Part shown: positions 5,821-15,327 of the stretch, piece after piece | Layout of the letters: each line of letters opens with the position of its first letter | Numbering within the stretch: position 1 is the first letter of the stretch | DNA from: Halorubrum saccharovorum DSM 1137 | Lineage (GTDB): Archaea; Halobacteriota; Halobacteria; Halobacteriales; Haloferacaceae | Direction of reading: 5' to 3' | Assembly: GCF_000337915.1 (NCBI RefSeq) | Contig: NZ_AOJE01000064.1 | Coordinates: forward strand, 1 to 38,310 | Length of the DNA: 38,310 nt | The notes under the pieces: generated by a model | What the model was told of the DNA's origin: nothing | The model's database searches: none | Seen by the model: the letters and a program-made list of their open reading frames with translations, nothing else | Position numbers and translations under genes: made by a program

Positions 5821-6819
5821 ATGACAGACACCACGACGACGACACCCTACGCGACGCAGGACGAGACGGACAGAGACGCGACCGACGAGCCCTTCGAGGG
5901 CGTCTACCCGGCGATGACGACCCCGTTCACGGACGACAACGAGGTCGATCACGAGCAGCTCGCCGATAACGCCCGCTACCTCGAACGCGCCGGCGTCGAC
6001 GGGGTCGTCCCCGTCGGCTCTACCGGCGAGTCGGCGACGATGACCCACGACGAGCACGTCGACGTGATCGAGACCGTCCGCGACGCCGTCGAGGACGTGC
6101 CGGTGATCGCCGGCACCGGCTCGAACAACACCGCCGAGGCGCTCTCGCTGTCCCGGCGCGCCGCCGACGCGGGCGCCGACGGGCTCCTCCTCATCTCCCC
6201 GTACTACAACAAGCCCGAGCCCGCCGGCTTCCTGGAGCACTACCGCACCATCGCCGACGAGGTCGACCTCCCGCAGATCGTCTACAACGTCCCGGGCCGG
6301 ACGGGTCAGTCGATCTCCGTCGACGTGAGCGTCGAACTCGCCGAGCACCCGAACATCCAGGGGTACAAGGCCGCCTCGGGCGACCTGAACCTCATCAGCG
6401 AGGTGATCGAACGCACCCGAGACGAGGAGTTCGCGGTGCTCTCCGGCGACGACGGACTCACCCTTCCCGTGCTCTCGATAGGCGGTACCGGAACGATCAG
6501 CGTCGTCGCCAACGTCGAGCCCGAGCGCTCCTGTGCGATGGTCGGCGCCGCGCTCTCGGGCGATTACGACCGCGCCCGCGCGCTCCACCACGAGCTCTCG
6601 CCGCTCGTCCGCGAGCTGTTCGCCGAGACGAACCCGATCCCGGTGAAGGAGGCGATGCACGTCCGGGGCCGGGGCGGGCCCCTGGTCCGGTCGCCGCTCT
6701 CGCGGCTCTCCGGAGAGCGCCGTGAGACACTGCGCGAGCTGCTCGCCGAGTACGACGAGGCGGCTCCCGGCACCGTCGATCCCGAGGCCGTCGAGCCCGC
6801 GGCGGGGGACGCCGAATGA
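5821..6819 (+). CDS. dapA: 4-hydroxy-tetrahydrodipicolinate synthase
   Basis: 332 residues; condenses pyruvate with aspartate semialdehyde, the first committed step of the diaminopimelate route to lysine. The TIM-barrel signature is clear: GSTGE at 66-70, YNVPGRT with Tyr155 and Arg160, and the Schiff-base Lys183 in GYKAASGD. A polar, Thr-rich extension of about 25 residues precedes the usual start of the family (FEGVYPAMTTPF), so a downstream initiation site cannot be excluded, though no better start codon is present before it. It opens a six-gene operon and overlaps dapB by 4 nt. Confidence 0.97.
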   Translation: MTDTTTTTPYATQDETDRDATDEPFEGVYPAMTTPFTDDNEVDHEQLADNARYLERAGVDGVVPVGSTGESATMTHDEHVDVIETVRDAVEDVPVIAGTGSNNTAEALSLSRRAADAGADGLLLISPYYNKPEPAGFLEHYRTIADEVDLPQIVYNVPGRTGQSISVDVSVELAEHPNIQGYKAASGDLNLISEVIERTRDEEFAVLSGDDGLTLPVLSIGGTGTISVVANVEPERSCAMVGAALSGDYDRARALHHELSPLVRELFAETNPIPVKEAMHVRGRGGPLVRSPLSRLSGERRETLRELLAEYDEAAPGTVDPEAVEPAAGDAE

Positions 6820-7619
6820 GCGGCGGCGACGCCGACCTCCGGCTCGCCGTCACCGGCGCCGGCGGCCGGATGGGGCGAGAGGTGATCGAGGCGGCCGCCG
6901 ACCGCGAGGGCGTCGCCGTCGCCGTCGCGGTCAACCGCACCCCGACCGACCCGGTGGCGGGCGTCGCGGTCGAGGGTGCCGACCGACTCGACGAGCTGCT
7001 CGCCGCCGCGGAGCCGGACGCGCTCGTCGACTTCACCGGCCCCGAATCGGCGGTCGCGTACGCCGAGGCCTGCGCCGACGCCGGCGTGCCGATGGTCACC
7101 GGGACGACCGGCTTCGCGGACGCGCAGCTCGCCGGCCTCCGGGCCGCGAGCGAGGCGGTTCCCGTGCTCAAGGCGTCGAACTTCGCGCGCGGCGTCGCCG
7201 CGCTCCGCCGCGCGGTCCGGGAGGCCGCCGCCGCGCTCCCCGGCTACGACGTGGAGCTGACCGAGACGCACCACAACGCCAAGCGGGACGCCCCCTCGGG
7301 CACCGCGAAGTCGATTCTCGGCGACGTGGAGTCGGTCCGCGACGACCTCGACGAGCGCGTCCACGGCCGCGAGGGCGACGCGCCGCGCGAGGCCGGCGAG
7401 ATCGGCGTCCACGCCCGGCGCGCGGGCGACGTGACCGGCGAGCACGAGGTGCTGTTCGCCGGCAACCGCGAGTCGATCGAACTCACGCACCGCGCCGGCG
7501 ACCGCGGCGTGTTCGCCGAGGGCGCGCTCGACGCCGCCGACTGGCTCGCCGACCGCGACCCCGGCTGGTACGGGTTCGGCGACGTGCTGGACGCGGACGG
7601 CGGAGACGCTGGACAATAA
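6816..7619 (+). CDS. dapB: 4-hydroxy-tetrahydrodipicolinate reductase
   Basis: 267 residues; NAD(P)H-dependent reduction of the DapA product to tetrahydrodipicolinate. The nucleotide-binding loop TGAGGRMG is at 13-20, TGTTGF at 95-100, and the substrate-binding signature THHNAKRDAPSGTA at 151-164, all canonical. Its ATG lies within the dapA stop region (ATGA overlap), which points to translational coupling. The C-terminal tail (GDVLDADGGDAGQ) is acidic, as usual in halophiles. Confidence 0.97.
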   Translation: MSGGDADLRLAVTGAGGRMGREVIEAAADREGVAVAVAVNRTPTDPVAGVAVEGADRLDELLAAAEPDALVDFTGPESAVAYAEACADAGVPMVTGTTGFADAQLAGLRAASEAVPVLKASNFARGVAALRRAVREAAAALPGYDVELTETHHNAKRDAPSGTAKSILGDVESVRDDLDERVHGREGDAPREAGEIGVHARRAGDVTGEHEVLFAGNRESIELTHRAGDRGVFAEGALDAADWLADRDPGWYGFGDVLDADGGDAGQ

Positions 7620-7643
7620 CTTCCAGACATACACACATCGACG

Positions 7644-7651
7644 AATAAATA
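7644..7651 (+). promoter_or_regulatory. Internal TATA box before dapD
   Basis: AATAAATA sits 26-33 nt before the dapD ATG in the only real gap of the operon (57 nt), so dapD and downstream genes may have their own leaderless promoter. Confidence 0.6.
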
Positions 7652-7676
7652 CCGACACTCATCCATACACCATTCA

Positions 7677-8516
7677 ATGACGCTCGAAGCCGACGTATCC
7701 GATCTGTGGAACCGCTATCAGGAGGGGCTGACCGCCGCCGACGCGACCGACGAGGACGCGGCCGTGATCGACGAGTTCCTCGCCGCGCTGGAGGCCGGCG
7801 AGGTCCGCGCCGCCGAGAAGACCGGCGACGACGTGACCTCGTGGGAGGCCAACGAGTGGGTCAAGCGGGGCATCCTGCTCAACTTCGGCCTGCGCGAGAC
7901 CGAGGCGCGCGAGTACGGCGGCGTGACCTACCACGACGTGCTCCCGCTGCGCGACACCGACGACCTCGGCGAGCGCGGCACCCGGAACACGCCGGACGGG
8001 ACGGCGATCCGCCGGGGGGCCTACCTCGGTAGCGACTGTATCATGATGAGCCCCTCGTTCGTCAACATGGGCGCGTACGTCGGCGACGGAACCCTCGTCG
8101 ACTCGTGTGACACGGTCGGCTCCTGCGCCCAGCTCGGCGAGAACGTCAAGCTCGGCGCCAACACGCTGATCGGCGGCGTCCTCGAACCGGTCGAGGACGC
8201 GCCCGTCATTATCGAGGACGGCGTCTCGCTCGGCGCGGGCTGTCGGGTCACCTCCGGCTTCCGCGTCGGCGAGAACTCGATCGTCGGCGAGAACACGCTC
8301 CTCACGCCCCGCATCCCCGTCTACGACCTCGTCGAGGAAGACGTGATCTACGGCCACCTCCCCGCCGAGCGCCGCGCGTTCACCCGGATGGTGGAGTCAT
8401 CGGTCGGCGACCACGACCTGTTCGAGGGCGGCGCGTACAAGCCCGCGGTCGTCGCGACCCACGTCGAGGAGGAGACGCTGGAGGCGACGCGGCGCGAGGA
8501 CGCCCTCCGCGAATGA
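7677..8516 (+). CDS. dapD: 2,3,4,5-tetrahydropyridine-2,6-dicarboxylate N-succinyltransferase
   Basis: 279 residues; transfers succinyl from succinyl-CoA to tetrahydrodipicolinate, which commits this organism to the succinylase branch. The N-terminal helical part is followed from ~110 by left-handed beta-helix hexapeptide repeats (GAYLGSDCIM, VNMGAYVGDGTLVDSCDTVGSCAQLGENVKLGANTLIGGV). The family motif SFVNMGAYVG is intact. A nearby TATA box supports this start. The gene overlaps lysA by 4 nt. Confidence 0.96.
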   Translation: MTLEADVSDLWNRYQEGLTAADATDEDAAVIDEFLAALEAGEVRAAEKTGDDVTSWEANEWVKRGILLNFGLRETEAREYGGVTYHDVLPLRDTDDLGERGTRNTPDGTAIRRGAYLGSDCIMMSPSFVNMGAYVGDGTLVDSCDTVGSCAQLGENVKLGANTLIGGVLEPVEDAPVIIEDGVSLGAGCRVTSGFRVGENSIVGENTLLTPRIPVYDLVEEDVIYGHLPAERRAFTRMVESSVGDHDLFEGGAYKPAVVATHVEEETLEATRREDALRE

Positions 8517-9871
8517 GCGACGGCGACGCGGACGCACCGGACGGCCCGGAAAATCCACCCGCCCGGCGCGTGAGCGACTGGAGCGCCGAGCGCCTCGCCG
8601 GCCTCGCGGACGAGCACGACACGCCCCTCTACGTGCAGGACCTCGACCGCGTGGGCGAGAACTGCGAGCGCCTGCGCGACGCCTTCCCGGACGCCGACGT
8701 GCGGTACGCGGTGAAGGCGCACACCGGCCGGGCCGTGCTGGAGACGGTCCGCGAGGCGGGCCTCGACGCCGAGTGCGCCTCGGCGGGCGAGGTCGACCGC
8801 GCGCTCGCGGCCGGCTTCGGCGGCGACCGCCTCCACTACACCGCGGTCAACCCGCCCGCCCGCGACCTCGACTACGTCGTCGGCGTCGCCGAGGCGGAGC
8901 CGGACCTCACGGTCACCGTCGGCGCGGTCGACACTCTCGACCGCCTCGCCGAGCGCGGCTACGACGGGAGGGTCTGCGTCCGAGTGAACCCCGGCGTCGG
9001 CGCGGGCCACCACGAGAAGGTCCGGACCGGCGGCGCCGCGAAGTTCGGGATCCCCTCCGACCGGGCCGCGGAGGCGACGCGGGACGCGGCCGAGCGGTTC
9101 GACGTGGTCGGGATCCACGCCCACGCCGGGTCCGGAATCGACTCTGACCAGCTCGACAGCCACCGCGAACTGGTGGCGCGGATGGGCGAGCTCGCGCGGG
9201 AGCTGGCGGAGCCGGAGGACGCTGACGGCTCCCCCATCGATCTCGAGTACGTCGACGTCGGGGGCGGCTTCGGCGTCCCCTACGAGGAGGACGCGCCGGC
9301 GCTCGACCTGCCGGCGGTCGCCGCAGCGACGCGCGAGGCGGTCGCGCCGCTCCCCGCGGGCGTCGACCTCGCGATCGAGCCCGGGCGGTACGTCGTCGCC
9401 GACGCGGGCGTTCTCCTGACGCGCGTCAACACGGTGAAGCCGACGCCGGACGAGCGCGTCGTCGGCGTCGACGCCGGGATGACCGACCTGCTGCGCCCGG
9501 CGATGTACGACGCCTACCACCCGATCCGGAACCTCGGTGGCGGACGAGAGAGCGACGGGAGCGACGCTCCCGCCCCCGTCGACCGGTCGGCAACCCCTGT
9601 CACGGTCGCCGGACCTATCTGTGAGACGGGCGATACACTCTGTACAGACCGATCGCTCGCCGACCCGGCTCGCGGGGACCTCCTCGCCGTCGGGATCGCG
9701 GGCGCGTACGGATACGAGATGGCGAACCAATACAACTCACGACCGCGACCGGCGGAGGTCGCGCTCGACGACGGGACCGTGGCAGTCGTCCGCCGCCGAG
9801 AGACGCTCGGCGACCTGACGACGGTCGAGCGGGACGCGAACCGAACTGACCGAACGGAGGCGGGCCGATGA
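8513..9871 (+). CDS. lysA: Diaminopimelate decarboxylase
   Basis: 452 residues; PLP-dependent decarboxylation of meso-diaminopimelate to lysine. A fold-type III barrel: PLP lysine K68 in YAVKAH, HAHAGSGI, GGGFGVPY, the EPGRY phosphate site, and the active-site Cys in GPICETGD, with a closing AYGYEMANQYNSRPRPAEV. A hydrophilic insertion (GGGRESDGSDAPAPVD) precedes the Cys motif, a typical haloarchaeal surface loop. It overlaps dapD upstream and dapF downstream by 4 nt each. Its place before dapF, ahead of its own substrate supplier, shows the gene order is not the reaction order. Confidence 0.97.
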   Translation: MSDGDADAPDGPENPPARRVSDWSAERLAGLADEHDTPLYVQDLDRVGENCERLRDAFPDADVRYAVKAHTGRAVLETVREAGLDAECASAGEVDRALAAGFGGDRLHYTAVNPPARDLDYVVGVAEAEPDLTVTVGAVDTLDRLAERGYDGRVCVRVNPGVGAGHHEKVRTGGAAKFGIPSDRAAEATRDAAERFDVVGIHAHAGSGIDSDQLDSHRELVARMGELARELAEPEDADGSPIDLEYVDVGGGFGVPYEEDAPALDLPAVAAATREAVAPLPAGVDLAIEPGRYVVADAGVLLTRVNTVKPTPDERVVGVDAGMTDLLRPAMYDAYHPIRNLGGGRESDGSDAPAPVDRSATPVTVAGPICETGDTLCTDRSLADPARGDLLAVGIAGAYGYEMANQYNSRPRPAEVALDDGTVAVVRRRETLGDLTTVERDANRTDRTEAGR

Positions 9872-10806
9872 GCGCCTACGCCGTCCCGTTCGAGAAGTAC
9901 CACGGTACGGGCAACGACTTCATCGTCGTCGACGCGGACGCCGAGGCCGTCGGCGACCGCGCGGCCTTCGCGCGCGCCCACTGCGACCGCGAGACGGGCG
10001 TCGACGGGGAGACGTTCGACGCGGCCGCTGCGAGCGGCGCCGACGGGAACCCCGGGCGGCGCGGCGCCGACGGCGTCCTCTTTCTCAGCGTCGAGGAGCG
10101 GTTCGACCCCACCCGCGTCGTGATGACGCTCGTCCAGCCGGACGGATCCACGGCGACGATGTGCGGCAACGGTGCGCGCGTCGTCGCCCGATGGGCCCAC
10201 GACCGGACCGGCGACCGCGAGTTCATGATCGACACGCAGGCCGGCACCCGGCGGGCCTCCGTGAACGCGGACGCGACAGCGGCCACCATCGAGATGGGCG
10301 AGCCGACGTTCGACCCCCGCTGGGTCCCTCTCGCGCGAGACGAGCCCCTCATCGACGAACCGGTCGAGGGGCTCACGGTCACCGCCGTCAACACCGGCGT
10401 CCCGCACGCGGTGGCGTTCGTCGACGGCGGCCGCGACGACCCCGACGGGATCGGCGCGGTCGACCTCGACGCGGTCGCGCCGCCGGTGCGCCACGCCGAG
10501 GTCTTCCCCGAGGGCGCGAACGTGAACCTCGCCGCCGTCGTCGACGACGGGTCCGGTGACGGCCCCGCCGTCATCGACCAGCGCACCTTCGAGCGCGGTG
10601 TCGAGGGCGAGACCCGCTCCTGCGGTACCGGCGCGGTCGCGGTCGTCGCGGCCGCGCGCCGGCTCGACCTGATCGACGGCGACTCGGCGGTCAGTCGACC
10701 ACCGGGCGGCGATCTCGAAATTTCGGTTCCGGACCGGGGCCACGCGACCCTGACAGGCCCCGTCGCCCGCGAGTACGGGGGGACGCTCCCCGCCGACCCG
10801 CGATGA
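9868..10806 (+). CDS. dapF: Diaminopimelate epimerase
   Basis: 312 residues; interconverts LL- and meso-diaminopimelate through two active-site cysteines. Both are present: Cys99 in MCGNGARVVA and Cys252 in SCGTGAVAV. The N-terminal motif YHGTGNDFIV and the PHAVAFV and GANVN segments also match. There is an insertion of about 20 residues (48-66) between the conserved GVD and GADGVLFL elements. The start and stop overlap the neighbours by 4 nt. Confidence 0.97.
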   Translation: MSAYAVPFEKYHGTGNDFIVVDADAEAVGDRAAFARAHCDRETGVDGETFDAAAASGADGNPGRRGADGVLFLSVEERFDPTRVVMTLVQPDGSTATMCGNGARVVARWAHDRTGDREFMIDTQAGTRRASVNADATAATIEMGEPTFDPRWVPLARDEPLIDEPVEGLTVTAVNTGVPHAVAFVDGGRDDPDGIGAVDLDAVAPPVRHAEVFPEGANVNLAAVVDDGSGDGPAVIDQRTFERGVEGETRSCGTGAVAVVAAARRLDLIDGDSAVSRPPGGDLEISVPDRGHATLTGPVAREYGGTLPADPR

Positions 10807-12002
10807 GCGAGACGGCCTTCGATCCGGTCTCATTCCTGGCGCAGGCGGTTCGAACCCCCTCCCACGAGTCGATCGACGAGATGCGCGCGTTCGTCGTCGA
10901 GACGCTCGATCGGTTCGGAGTCGAACACGAGGTCGTCGCCGGCGGCTGCGTGCTCGCCGAGAAGCGCTCGGACGCACCGGATGAGGGGCCGCACCTCGTG
11001 TTGAACACCCACCTCGACACGGTGACGCCGCACGTCCCGTTCGAGCGCGGCGAGGCGACCGAAGACGAGCGCGGCGGTTCGACGGCGGCGACCGACGGAT
11101 CGGGAGACGTGATCCGCGGCCGCGGCGCCTGCGACGCGAAGGGACCGCTCGCCGCCCTGCTCGCCGGGTTCCTCGCCGCCGAACCGGAGCGCGGGCGACT
11201 CACGCTGGCGCTCACCCCGGACGAGGAGTCGCTGTCGCTCGGCGCGGCGGCGCTGACCGGTCGCTCGCCCGAGACCGAAGACCGGCTCGACGGCGACCTG
11301 TTCCTGGTCGGCGAACCGACCGGTCTCGACGCCTGCACCGCCGCGAAGGGGCGGTTTCAGGGGACCGTCGAGCTGTCGGGGACCGCGGCCCACGCCGCGG
11401 AGTTCGCGGGGGCGAACGCGGTCGCGGCCGCCGAGGGCGCGCTCGCGGCGGTCCGGACCTTCGACGACGGCGCCGACGAACACCCCCAGCTCGGCGCGCC
11501 GAAGCTCACGCCGACCGTCATCCAGGGCGGCGGCGCGACGAATCAGGTGCCCGCGGACTGCGAGATCACCGTCGACCGCCGGAGCGTCCCGCCGGAGACG
11601 GCGGAGGGGTTCCGGTCGTCGCTCGCGGAGGCGGTCGACGGGGAGACCCCGGACGATATCGGCGTCGAGGTCGCGCTGACGGACCGCGAGTCGCCGTTCT
11701 TCGAGGCGTTCTCGACGGATCCGGACCACGAACTCGTGAACGCGGTCGCGAGCGCGGCCCGGGCCGCCGACGAGTCGATCGGCCTTCCGACGGACCGCGG
11801 CGGCGCGGTCAGGCCCTTCGGTGCGGCGACGGAGGCGTCGTACTTCGCGCCCGCGCCGACGGTCGTGTTCGGCCCCGGCGACCTCGCGGACGACGCCGGA
11901 GCGGTGGCGCACGCCGAGCGGGAGTACGTCCGGACTCGGGAGGTCGAGGCGGCCGCGGAGGCGGTCGAGCGCGCGGTGTCGACGCTGCTTGCGGAGCCGT
12001 AG
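10803..12002 (+). CDS. dapE: M20 family amidohydrolase, probable succinyl-diaminopimelate desuccinylase
   Basis: 399 residues; a zinc-dependent M20 hydrolase with the expected ligands: H and D in LNTHLDTV, D in RGACDAKGP, the EE pair in TPDEESLS, and E in VGEPTGLD. The dimerisation insert follows (GRFQGTVELSGTAAHAAEFAGANA). M20 enzymes share this scaffold, so specificity comes from context: it is the last gene of the dap operon, overlapping dapF by 4 nt, and removes the succinyl group added by DapD. The aminotransferase step (DapC) is not encoded here and is probably served by an ArgD-like enzyme elsewhere. Confidence 0.9.
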   Translation: MSETAFDPVSFLAQAVRTPSHESIDEMRAFVVETLDRFGVEHEVVAGGCVLAEKRSDAPDEGPHLVLNTHLDTVTPHVPFERGEATEDERGGSTAATDGSGDVIRGRGACDAKGPLAALLAGFLAAEPERGRLTLALTPDEESLSLGAAALTGRSPETEDRLDGDLFLVGEPTGLDACTAAKGRFQGTVELSGTAAHAAEFAGANAVAAAEGALAAVRTFDDGADEHPQLGAPKLTPTVIQGGGATNQVPADCEITVDRRSVPPETAEGFRSSLAEAVDGETPDDIGVEVALTDRESPFFEAFSTDPDHELVNAVASAARAADESIGLPTDRGGAVRPFGAATEASYFAPAPTVVFGPGDLADDAGAVAHAEREYVRTREVEAAAEAVERAVSTLLAEP

Positions 12003-12044: not shown

Positions 12045-12542
12045 CTACAGCAGGAACGTCTCCTCTTTCTCCGCGAGGTCGACGAAGTCGTCGGCGGCCT
12101 CGATCAGCTCGTCGGCGGCGGAGTTGCCGAATCCCATCGCCTCGACGCGGACTCCCTCGTGACGGAGGTGCGAGCAGAGCCGGGCGAAGTCGCCGTCGCC
12201 GGTACAGAGGACGACCGTGTCGACGTGGCTCGCGAGCGAGACGGCGTCGAGGCTCATTCCGAGATCCCAGTCGGCCTTCTTCGAGCCGTCGGCGAACGTC
12301 TTGATCTCCTTGATCTTCGTTTCGAAGCCGATGTCGCGTAACGCCTCGAAGAAGCTCTCCTCTTCGGGGGACTCCGCCCGGATCACGTACGCGATGGCCC
12401 GAACGAGCGATCGGTCGTTAACCGCCTCCTCCAACAGTCCCGAATAGTCGATGTTCCGAGAGTACACGCTCTGGGCGGAGTGATACAGGTTTTGCGAGTC
12501 GGCGAGCACCGCGACGCGCTGGTCGGGGTGAATTTCGGTCAT
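12045..12542 (-). CDS. NYN-domain (PIN-like, LabA/DUF88) protein
   Basis: 165 residues. The NYN fold is suggested by an early Asp in LADSQNLYHS, KKADWDLGMSLDAV in the middle and LCTGDGDFARL toward the end, giving the acidic cluster expected for a metal-dependent RNase-like site. NYN proteins are thought to act on RNA; no target can be read here. The frame could start 22 residues earlier, but MTEIHPDQRVAVL fits the family's N-terminus, and an A/T-rich box (CCCAAAAC) lies 30-36 nt upstream. It is convergent with the dap operon and divergent from the solute-binding protein. Confidence 0.85.
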   Translation of the reverse strand: MTEIHPDQRVAVLADSQNLYHSAQSVYSRNIDYSGLLEEAVNDRSLVRAIAYVIRAESPEEESFFEALRDIGFETKIKEIKTFADGSKKADWDLGMSLDAVSLASHVDTVVLCTGDGDFARLCSHLRHEGVRVEAMGFGNSAADELIEAADDFVDLAEKEETFLL

Positions 12543-12649
12543 ACGCTCCGTTCGATCCGATGGGTTAGGGGTTTTGGGATCCGTTCGCCTCGTGGCGCGG
12601 TCCGACATCGATCTAGGTGTTTTTGTATGCCTTCTTATTGGATCAGAAC

Positions 12650-14572
12650 GTGAGACTGCAGCATCGTCACAGTGGAAGTGACAGCGAGAACCACATCGAT
12701 CGGCGGCAGTGGCTCTCCACGCTCGGCGCCGTCGGCGTTGCGACGCTCGCCGGCTGTTCGGATCGGGACGACAACGGGAACACCGGGAGAACCGGAAGCG
12801 CCGAGGATGCCGAAAGCGCCGGAGGTGCCGGGGGCACCGATGCGGTCGCCGTGGACGCCGGTACCTTCCCGCGGTTCGGCGTCGACGACCTGTACGGCGA
12901 GGAGCTCGCCCGAGACCTCGCCCGGCGGGCGTTCGAGCGGTCCGAGTACGATTACGGCTTCGCCGGCGGGGACCTCGTCACTCCGGAGGGCGAGCAGGTC
13001 ACGCTTGACATCTACTACCGCGCGGAACGCGAGCCCTCGCGGCTCACCGCCGAGTTCGTCTCCGAGGAGCTCGGCGACAACCTCGGTATCGACGTCGCGG
13101 CCGAGGCCGTCGACGGCACGCGGTTCAACAACGAGTACTGGACCGCCGAGCCGACCGGTGGCGCCGACACCGTGAACGGCGAGGAGGTCGAGTGGGCGAA
13201 CCCCACCCCGCAGAACCCCGGGCCGCGCTCCGTCACCAGCACGGAGCCGTGGGACATGTCGGTCGTGTTCGGACTGAACGCACATCCCCACAATCCCCTG
13301 GCGAACGAGATGTTTTTCGACGGCGCCGACTCGCACTACAACCCGGTCGGCTACTACCCGCAGTTCGACGCGCAGGGGCTGTTCGAGGAGGCTCGGCGGG
13401 CGTCCGATCGAGACGAACTCCGGGAGGCGTTCGTCGAGATATTCGAGAATATCGCCCGCGAGCAGCCGTACGTCACCCTGTTGTTCAGCGACGGCCTCGT
13501 CGGCTATAACCCCGACCTCGAAGGGCCGATCGAGGACTTCTCGAACGGGTGGGACCTGCCCGCGTGGCACGAGGGCGAACCGACCGTCAGCGGGTCGTAC
13601 GACACCGTCACCCCTGAGCGGTTCGCCACCTTGAACCCGCTGTTCAACGCCGAAAACGGCGCCGGCATCGCGATCGGCCGCGCGCTCGATCGGGGGTACA
13701 CGTTCGACGAGAACCGGGAGTACTTCCCGCTGCTGTACGACATGTCCACCGAAGAGGGCGAGACGTGGACGTTCGACGTGCGGGAGAACCTCCGGTTCAG
13801 CGAGCCGTACGGTCAGGTCACAGCCGGAGACTTCGTCTACCTCGTCCGAGAGATTCACCAGGCCGACTGGGCGCCCACCGCCGCGTCGGGCGGCTGGGAC
13901 GGCGTCGAAGTCGAACAGACGGGCGAGTTCCAGTTCGAGGCGACGCTGGAGTCTTCGAACCTGCTGTGGCCCCGGACGCGCGACCCGCTCCTGTACCCGA
14001 TCCCCCGCGACCTCGTCGAGCCGTACGTTCGAGCGGAGGACGTGGAAGGGCTCAAACGGGACGAGGAGCTGCTCGAACTCCGGTTCACCGGCAACCTCGG
14101 TGCGTTCGAGCTCACGGAGTGGAACCGCGGCTCGGGCACCGAGTACGTCCGCAACGACGAGTACTACCTCCGCGACATCGACGAGGGCCCCGACCTGTTC
14201 TCGGAGGGGCCGCTCTTCGAGGAGGCGTCGATCAGCGTCGTTCCGAAGCAGGCGTCCCGTCTCGGTGCGCTTAAGGCCGGCGAAGCCGACTCGGTGGCGA
14301 TCCCGTCGGATCGGTACGGGTCGTACGACGAGGACGAGAACGTGGCGGTCCGGCGGGTTCCCACGCCGTACAACACGGTTCTCTCCGTGAACCAGCGCGC
14401 GAACGGCTGGAGCGCCGGCCCGGGGAACCCCTTCCGACTGGTTCCGTTCCGCCAGGCGCTGGCGGCGGCGATCAGTAAGCGAGGTCTCATCGACGGCGTC
14501 TATCGGGGGCTCGCCGAGCCGAACTTCACCTGGCAACCTCGCTGGTCCGAGTTCTCCCCGGCTGACGACTGA
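12650..14572 (+). CDS. Tat lipoprotein ABC solute-binding protein (family 5), apparently circularly permuted
   Basis: 640 residues from the GTG at 12650; a GTG at 12617 would add 11. The N-terminus is a Tat lipoprotein signal: DRRQWLSTLG then LAGC with lipid-bearing Cys36, followed by a Gly/Asn/Glu-rich linker. The mature part belongs to the oligopeptide-binding family (SBP_bac_5) but in swapped order. Residues ~66-310 match what is normally the C-terminal portion (EQVTLDIYYRAEREPSRLTA, GDNLGIDV, NPVGYYPQFDAQGLFEEA, ENIAREQPYVTLLF). Residues ~314-640 match the normal N-terminal and middle portion (LNPLFNAENGAG, TWTFDVRENLRF, VTAGDFVYLV, FRQALAAAISKRGLI, FTWQPRW), after which the protein stops. 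No permease or ATPase gene is adjacent. Probable role: extracellular peptide or solute capture at the membrane surface. Confidence 0.85.
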   Translation: MRLQHRHSGSDSENHIDRRQWLSTLGAVGVATLAGCSDRDDNGNTGRTGSAEDAESAGGAGGTDAVAVDAGTFPRFGVDDLYGEELARDLARRAFERSEYDYGFAGGDLVTPEGEQVTLDIYYRAEREPSRLTAEFVSEELGDNLGIDVAAEAVDGTRFNNEYWTAEPTGGADTVNGEEVEWANPTPQNPGPRSVTSTEPWDMSVVFGLNAHPHNPLANEMFFDGADSHYNPVGYYPQFDAQGLFEEARRASDRDELREAFVEIFENIAREQPYVTLLFSDGLVGYNPDLEGPIEDFSNGWDLPAWHEGEPTVSGSYDTVTPERFATLNPLFNAENGAGIAIGRALDRGYTFDENREYFPLLYDMSTEEGETWTFDVRENLRFSEPYGQVTAGDFVYLVREIHQADWAPTAASGGWDGVEVEQTGEFQFEATLESSNLLWPRTRDPLLYPIPRDLVEPYVRAEDVEGLKRDEELLELRFTGNLGAFELTEWNRGSGTEYVRNDEYYLRDIDEGPDLFSEGPLFEEASISVVPKQASRLGALKAGEADSVAIPSDRYGSYDEDENVAVRRVPTPYNTVLSVNQRANGWSAGPGNPFRLVPFRQALAAAISKRGLIDGVYRGLAEPNFTWQPRWSEFSPADD

Positions 14573-14583
14573 TCGCCTCGACC

Positions 14584-15327
14584 TCAACCGTTCTCGAACA
14601 CCGGTAGCGTCGCCCGTTTCGCCCCGGCGGTCTCGGCCTCGTCGTCGATCACCACCAGATCGCCGCGGGACTCGCCGTCCTCGCGACCGGAACTCCGGTC
14701 CGCAAGCACGACCGTTCCTCCGACGGAGAGCGGCGCGACCACGCCGGCGGCAAGCACTCGCGGGTCCGCGAGGTCGCTCCGGAGGACGACCCGCGTCTCG
14801 GCGTCGATCCCGTGTCGATCGACGACCGAGGCGGCCGCCGCGAGGAGGTCTCGGTGGGTTACGTCACCGTCTGCGGCCCGGACGACCGGGTCGTCGGGGG
14901 CGACCCCGCTCGGCGGCATCGCGGGGTTCTCGCTCCACAGCTCCTGCTCCCAGTGGGTCGTCTCGGGGCGGTCCGGCGGACCGCCGAAGGCGGCGAGACT
15001 GGTTCCGGGCGCCGGCTCCGTCGTCGACTCGTCCGCGACGGCGACGAGGACCACACGATCGCCCCGTTCGATCCCCGTCGCGGGGTCGAACCGGACCGGA
15101 GCCCCCAGCCCCGCGGCGCCGAGGAAGGCGAGCGTCGTGTGAAACCCCGGCGTCGGCTCGACGGCGACGGTCGATCCCTCGCGGGCGCCGAGGTAGCGCA
15201 ACACGTTGGCGGCCTTGTACGCGTTGGTGATCAGGTCCCGATACGTGCGCTCGCGCCCGTCGGCCGTGACGAGCGCGACCTCGCGGCTCCGCCGATCGCG
15301 ATCGAGCAAGTCGCCGACGACGTCCAT
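14584..15327 (-). CDS. Short AMP-binding (ANL superfamily) N-domain-like protein
   Basis: 247 residues. The first ~75 resemble the N-terminal start of acyl-CoA synthetases (RTYRDLITNAYKAANVLRYLG, then EGSTVAVEP, LAFLGAAGLGAPV). The P-loop-like STSG/TGxPK motif and the C-terminal A8/A10 motifs of active adenylate-forming enzymes are missing, and full members are over 500 residues. It may be a stand-alone regulatory or binding protein of haloarchaea rather than a broken gene, because the frame is open, the start has a TATA-like box and the ends are clean. Substrate and activity are unknown. It is convergent with the solute-binding protein (11-nt gap). Confidence 0.75.
   Translation of the reverse strand: MDVVGDLLDRDRRSREVALVTADGRERTYRDLITNAYKAANVLRYLGAREGSTVAVEPTPGFHTTLAFLGAAGLGAPVRFDPATGIERGDRVVLVAVADESTTEPAPGTSLAAFGGPPDRPETTHWEQELWSENPAMPPSGVAPDDPVVRAADGDVTHRDLLAAAASVVDRHGIDAETRVVLRSDLADPRVLAAGVVAPLSVGGTVVLADRSSGREDGESRGDLVVIDDEAETAGAKRATLPVFENG

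Follow-up and report, generated by a model that had tools for sequence, protein, structure and literature searches.

Circular permutation has been described before among the solute-binding proteins (SBPs) of ABC transporters. TpMglB-2 (Tp0684) of Treponema pallidum is a naturally circularly permuted, lipid-anchored SBP in which the bilobed fold and ligand binding are retained (PMC4990184). It belongs to the sugar-binding type I proteins of cluster B, and its authors proposed the designation 'Type Ic / Cluster Bc' and suggested anchoring to the membrane as a factor that might favour the altered topology (PMC4990184). The permuted portion of TpMglB-2 is about 13% identical to its counterpart (PMC4990184), a level so low that the homology of this portion is uncertain. 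The glycine-betaine-binding proteins are likewise related by permutation to the molybdate-binding proteins and CysB, a relationship that was found structurally, at sequence identities below 24% (PMC2395249). As a rule, natural circular permutation is inferred from comparisons of such distant proteins, in which event, order and consequence are blurred. No published permutant of the SBP_bac_5/DppA cluster or from haloarchaea was found in a literature search that left subscription papers and most preprints outside its coverage, and the novelty of a cluster C permutant is therefore provisional.

The gene discussed here lies in a window of 38,310 nucleotides, the whole stretch of DNA that was analysed, from Halorubrum saccharovorum DSM 1137. 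With a probability of roughly 0.88, it encodes a naturally circularly permuted lipoprotein of cluster C (DppA/OppA/NikA-type) that arose by an event in place, kept its fold and became an orphan in the window, and whose kind of rearrangement recurred elsewhere. The rearrangement took place in one Halorubrum lineage without any change of operon position: the new ends were opened within the crossover segment that follows the N-terminal block, the former C-terminus was fused straight to the former N-terminus, and the leader kept its place at the front. Both halves of the protein align with the SBP_bac_5 or cluster C proteins (DppA, OppA, AppA, NikA), with which it also shares the operon context in close relatives; however, its block order is exchanged and its termini lie in the crossover segment and not at the usual ends. 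In comparison with the canonical Halorubrum dpp SBP (G004/L042), the locus is orthologous, the leader is the same and the sequence is approximately 60% identical, but the block order differs. Unlike TpMglB-2, the Halorubrum permutant has orthologs of canonical order and about 60% identity at the same locus in sister species. The glycine-betaine, molybdate-binding and CysB proteins, for their part, belong to other clusters and show no recent permutation at an unchanged locus for which close sisters of canonical order exist.

The permuted gene occupies positions 12650 to 14572 of the plus strand and encodes an SBP_bac_5 (cluster C) solute-binding lipoprotein of 640 residues, as read from the open reading frame, its translation, the Pfam match and the comparison with 18 further Halorubrum species. 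The reading frame is intact and closes with a stop codon at 14570–14572; its likely start is the GTG at 12650, with a further in-frame GTG at 12617. The GC content of the gene, 66–68%, is somewhat below that of the upstream DNA and inside the regional range. The leader (12650–12754, plus strand), with the sequence RRQWLSTLGAVGVATLAGC, matches the canonical leader and carries a twin-arginine motif (RRQWLS) and a lipobox (LAGC), whose cysteine, Cys36, is encoded at 12755–12757. To judge from these motifs, the protein would be exported by the Tat pathway and lipid-anchored through its new N-terminus. A low-complexity tether rich in acidic, glycine and serine residues (12755–12862, plus strand), which coincides with low pLDDT at the start of the structural model, leads from the putatively lipidated cysteine to the folded domain.

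The folded part opens with block A (12863–13573, plus strand; residues 72–308), the canonical C-terminal part that now comes first, so that the new N-terminus lies immediately ahead of FPRFGVDDLYG. The inner junction (13571–13630, plus strand; residues 308–327), which corresponds to the gap between two BLASTP matches, has the sequence HEGEPTVSGSYDTVTPERFAT. The old C-terminal tail (NGWDLPAW) here runs into the old mature N-terminus (VSGSYD...TLNP) with no spacer, and the VSGSYD motif is also present in canonical N-termini. Block B (13631–14569, plus strand; residues 328–640), the canonical N-terminal part and now the last, ends with WSEFSPADD as the new C-terminus.

The exchange becomes apparent in a BLASTP comparison with the canonical Halorubrum ortholog at L042. 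Residues 3–37 of the leader correspond to canonical residues 6–41, residues 73–307 to canonical 402–652 (57% identity) and residues 328–640 to canonical 88–400 (63% identity), and the E-values of the block matches, 5e-142 and 4e-95, rule out a chance match. Only canonical residue 401 is left uncovered between the blocks, so that the cut, which falls between SEFYPPEE and IPQFGV in the canonical chain, is almost residue-exact. The Pfam profile SBP_bac_5 (PF00496) is matched with 120.7 bits, against a curated cut-off of 32.4, in two stretches, the better of which places residues 367–630 on profile positions 13–248. When PDB sequences were searched with phmmer, residues 235–292 matched residues 444–501 of AppA, in its C-terminal part, and residues 484–624 matched residues 186–307, in its middle. 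Both blocks are homologous to one protein, which they jointly cover in exchanged order, and this is what defines a natural circular permutant. The usual order of SBP_bac_5, with the N-terminal block ahead of the C-terminal block, is violated, and we file the protein as a permuted derivative of this family, homologous throughout, rather than as an ordinary member. No homology to MglB-type (cluster B) proteins was seen, the PDB sequence matches and the best 50 Foldseek matches listed being of the cluster C type.

The AlphaFold2 model of the window protein reached a mean pLDDT of 92.9 and a pTM of 0.87. Its input alignment combined permuted relatives with canonical sequences whose halves were entered as separate rows, and this arrangement may have favoured the model. 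Foldseek, whose matching requires the same chain order, aligned this model with AppA, DppA and NikZ over approximately 260 columns (TM 0.33–0.37), that is, over one block only. In contrast, the canonical ortholog, modelled as a control (pLDDT 92.0), aligned with the same structures over approximately 590 columns, with TM scores of 0.6–0.7 and target-normalised scores of up to 0.84. For a predicted model, a partial alignment of this kind, next to a canonical control that aligns throughout, is the pattern expected of a permutant, and the permuted protein is predicted to keep the usual Venus-flytrap shape. The first-pass annotation, made from the sequence of the window, had proposed that the two halves were swapped by circular permutation, and this is borne out by BLASTP, by the 18 other species, by trees of the two blocks and by structure prediction, in which the permuted model matches DppA with one half and the control throughout. 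The block borders it gave, residues 66–310 and 314–640, prove right to within about a dozen residues in BLASTP, the in-frame junctions and clean stop it described agree with the reading frame, and no alignment puts the blocks in the usual order.

When whole genomes of the genus were searched, 19 of 52 Halorubrum genomes had the permuted gene, each time as a single near-full-length match, and 15 had the canonical order, as two matches in opposite order; none of the 52 had both genes. In a separate collection, the permuted gene is present in the named isolates H. salsamenti, H. lipolyticum, H. sodomense and Halorubrum sp. CSM-61. Wherever flanking genes were read, the locus is the same for the permuted and the canonical form, and in the most complete loci the SBP gene is flanked by M20 peptidase/NYN-domain genes and by AMP-binding/dnaJ/dnaK genes. 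This common locus indicates that the event took place in situ. In the window, the conserved left neighbour of both forms is an NYN-domain gene (12045–12608, minus strand), and the conserved right-hand marker of the locus is a short AMP-binding-domain gene (14584–15327, minus strand), both assigned by Pfam and synteny.

With regard to its origin, the permuted order may go back to a tandem duplication, in frame and downstream of the leader, after which the first copy lost its N-terminal block and the second its C-terminal block. This model, which the first-pass annotation had put forward as one possible origin, fits because the leader and the gene position are unchanged and the old end is joined to the old beginning. 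No tandem-duplicate intermediate was found, the direct repeats around the gene are only short or imperfect and chance-like, and the intergenic gaps leave no room for a remnant of the duplication. The earlier proposal therefore stands as far as leader, position and junction are concerned, and the duplication step itself is one that we infer.

Synteny analysis with DppB, DppC, DppD and DppF queries placed dppB 26–43 bp downstream of the SBP gene in 14 of the 19 permuted Halorubrum loci, followed by dppC, dppD and dppF where enough flank was read. Since dppBCDF adjoins the permuted gene in these 14 loci, the permuted protein most likely still serves the DppBCDF importer in the operon-bearing relatives, and it may bind a peptide-like ligand. 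The permease genes are also still present in most canonical Halorubrum loci. In the window, the syntenic site of dppBCDF (14573–14583, no strand assigned) lacks these genes, which have been lost in a single clade formed by the window, G003, G012 and G067 and, separately, in G006. No close DppB was found elsewhere in the window's genome, where the best relative is 32% identical. The permuted protein would pass its ligand to the adjacent permease in most relatives, while in the window's genome, where the permease was lost, the orphan may have been kept because it feeds another Dpp-like permease, or as a scavenging or sensing lipoprotein. Loss of dppBCDF from the same locus was also seen beside one canonical SBP, L048 (G033), whose very long branch (approximately 0.8) suggests fast change after orphaning.

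Class-wide and family searches showed that many haloarchaeal genera besides Halorubrum also have permuted members. Their proteins use a second cut site and end about 30 residues later than those of Halorubrum, after ...DYGFE and before GDTLVGPDG. A third, distantly related group, identified in plasmid records, is cut slightly beyond the second site, after ...GGKLRYP and approximately 45 residues downstream of the Halorubrum cut. It includes Alphaproteobacteria (Neorhizobium, Nitratireductor, Roseomonas, Ketogulonicigenium and Maritalea) and haloarchaea (Halalkalicoccus, Haladaptatus, Halorussus, Natrialba and others). Its records are L160–L174, L179 and L180 (e.g. L160:5857–7512), with the exception of L162 and L173, which, together with L175–L178, are canonical or unclassified and fall outside the third permuted group. 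Importer genes follow most permuted SBP genes outside Halorubrum; in the third group they are mostly adjacent, and peptidase, racemase or hydantoinase genes are often nearby. For four SBPs of the second cut site, L076, L077, L080 and L082 (G222, G374, G232 and G320), no dppBCDF was detected within approximately 6 kb downstream, and these genes make up a second, unrelated group of orphans.

In a tree of 118 sequences, four changes to the permuted state are required, all of them forced by well-supported branches: one in Halorubrum, one in G324 and two in groups with the second cut. The gene of G324 (L066/L089) is permuted at the second cut site and its sister from the same genus, G252 (L067), is canonical (support 99), so this is possibly the youngest event. 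Placing the second-cut groups, without G324, in one clade was rejected more weakly (AU test, p = 0.007), and two separate events at this site are for that reason not insisted upon; a clade uniting the second and third cuts was rejected with p = 1.5e-07 in a tree with long branches. Taken together, at least four independent permutation events would have occurred, namely in Halorubrum, in G324, once or twice at the second cut and at the third cut, with their exact number left uncertain by the long deep branches. Comparable permutations would then have arisen independently elsewhere in cluster C, always near the same segment. On balance, we lean towards viewing cluster C SBPs as a hot spot of natural circular permutation, with at least four independent events, and probably five, among haloarchaea and Alphaproteobacteria, cuts within approximately 45 residues of one crossover segment and permuted proteins that take over the same importers. 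If this were the case, a structural or selective reason, such as repositioning of the membrane tether or the order of folding, would be favoured over chance.

Several other explanations for the exchanged order have to be weighed against a permutation in place. The window comes from a draft assembly of 72 contigs, of which it is one, and an assembly or binning artefact that misjoined the halves of one gene, or two genes, could in principle produce the same picture. However, the same order and conserved junctions recur in 18 other species, some with assemblies of very few contigs, and the gene is flanked left and right by the same genes as the canonical form. Misassembly, a risk that the first-pass annotation had pointed out, is excluded by an order common to independent assemblies of many species, and we give an artefact next to no credence. 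Domain shuffling, in which block A and block B would come from two different paralogs that became fused, appears very improbable: haloarchaea have several SBP_bac_5 paralogs and thus potential donors, but the two blocks are similarly close to a single canonical ortholog (63% and 57% identity), and neither the locus nor the leader has changed. The trees argue in the same direction, since the permuted Halorubrum genes form one group with a support of 99 in the full-length tree of re-ordered sequences, 98 in the block-B tree and 90 in the block-A tree, and are placed among the same canonical orthologs by both blocks. The canonical Halorubrum genes are the neighbouring group, with modest support (83–92), in the full-length and block-B trees, and the block-A tree alone leaves this relation unresolved. 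Separate trees of the blocks hence largely agree on the nearest canonical relatives, the placement of block A being modestly supported.

A different objection accepts the permutation but holds that the protein in the window no longer works as a binding protein and is a relic, either decaying or without a role in transport; this seems unlikely to us. It draws on the loss of dppBCDF in the window and four other species and on the dN/dS of the orphans, which is about twice that of the operon-linked copies. Nevertheless, all five orphan Halorubrum species have an intact reading frame, their dN/dS remains well under 1, and the permuted gene stands at the head of an importer operon in 14 of 19 cases. 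Pairs of operon-linked permuted genes gave dN/dS values of 0.11–0.22 and pairs containing an orphan 0.27–0.36, a contrast that is suggestive only, as canonical pairs span 0.13–0.37. The values of the orphan-containing pairs, approximately 0.3, suggest that the orphan copy is under weaker but still purifying selection. Finally, the presence of permuted forms in several haloarchaeal families and in Alphaproteobacteria might be read as an ancestral or single-origin permuted order, from which the canonical forms would be reversions. This reading is highly implausible: a single clade of all permuted forms was rejected (AU test, p = 5e-41), the G324 gene groups with a canonical sister from the same genus, and the cut sites differ between the groups. 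Reversion to the canonical order, on which trees alone do not decide, is mechanistically unlikely, and the exact canonical termini would need to have been restored repeatedly. A derived permutation of the canonical gene, at its own locus in Halorubrum, remains the reading that we favour.

Independent rearrangement on several occasions makes this kind of protein an uncommon natural experiment in how proteins evolve. The close pairs found here offer what distant comparisons do not, as sister species have, at the same operon position and with the same importer genes, orthologs of either order that are about 60% identical, and similar rearrangements have happened in other lineages at cut sites nearby. 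Such pairs would allow direct tests of permease docking, folding at high salt and ligand binding. The anchoring idea proposed for TpMglB-2 is in keeping with the haloarchaeal lipoproteins but does not suffice as an explanation, since several of the alphaproteobacterial permuted members, inspected by eye, seem to have ordinary cleaved signal peptides. Annotation based on profiles, which assigns the name 'ABC transporter substrate-binding protein', conceals the rearrangement.

Other features of the locus were also observed. Directly upstream of the NYN gene, the window contains a compact run of diaminopimelate-pathway genes (5821–12002, plus strand), composed of dapA, dapB, a dapD-like gene, a lysA-like decarboxylase gene, dapF and an M20 peptidase gene. 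In G016 (L019/L041), an in-frame stop divides the canonical ortholog into open frames of 396 and 187 residues, although dppBCDF is present downstream; the stop probably reflects either damage to the gene or an error in sequencing. The AMP-binding-domain gene to the right of the permuted gene encodes 247 residues that match only the first 70 or so of the 384 profile positions; since it is conserved at the locus across Halorubrum, it probably encodes a real small protein and is not a remnant.
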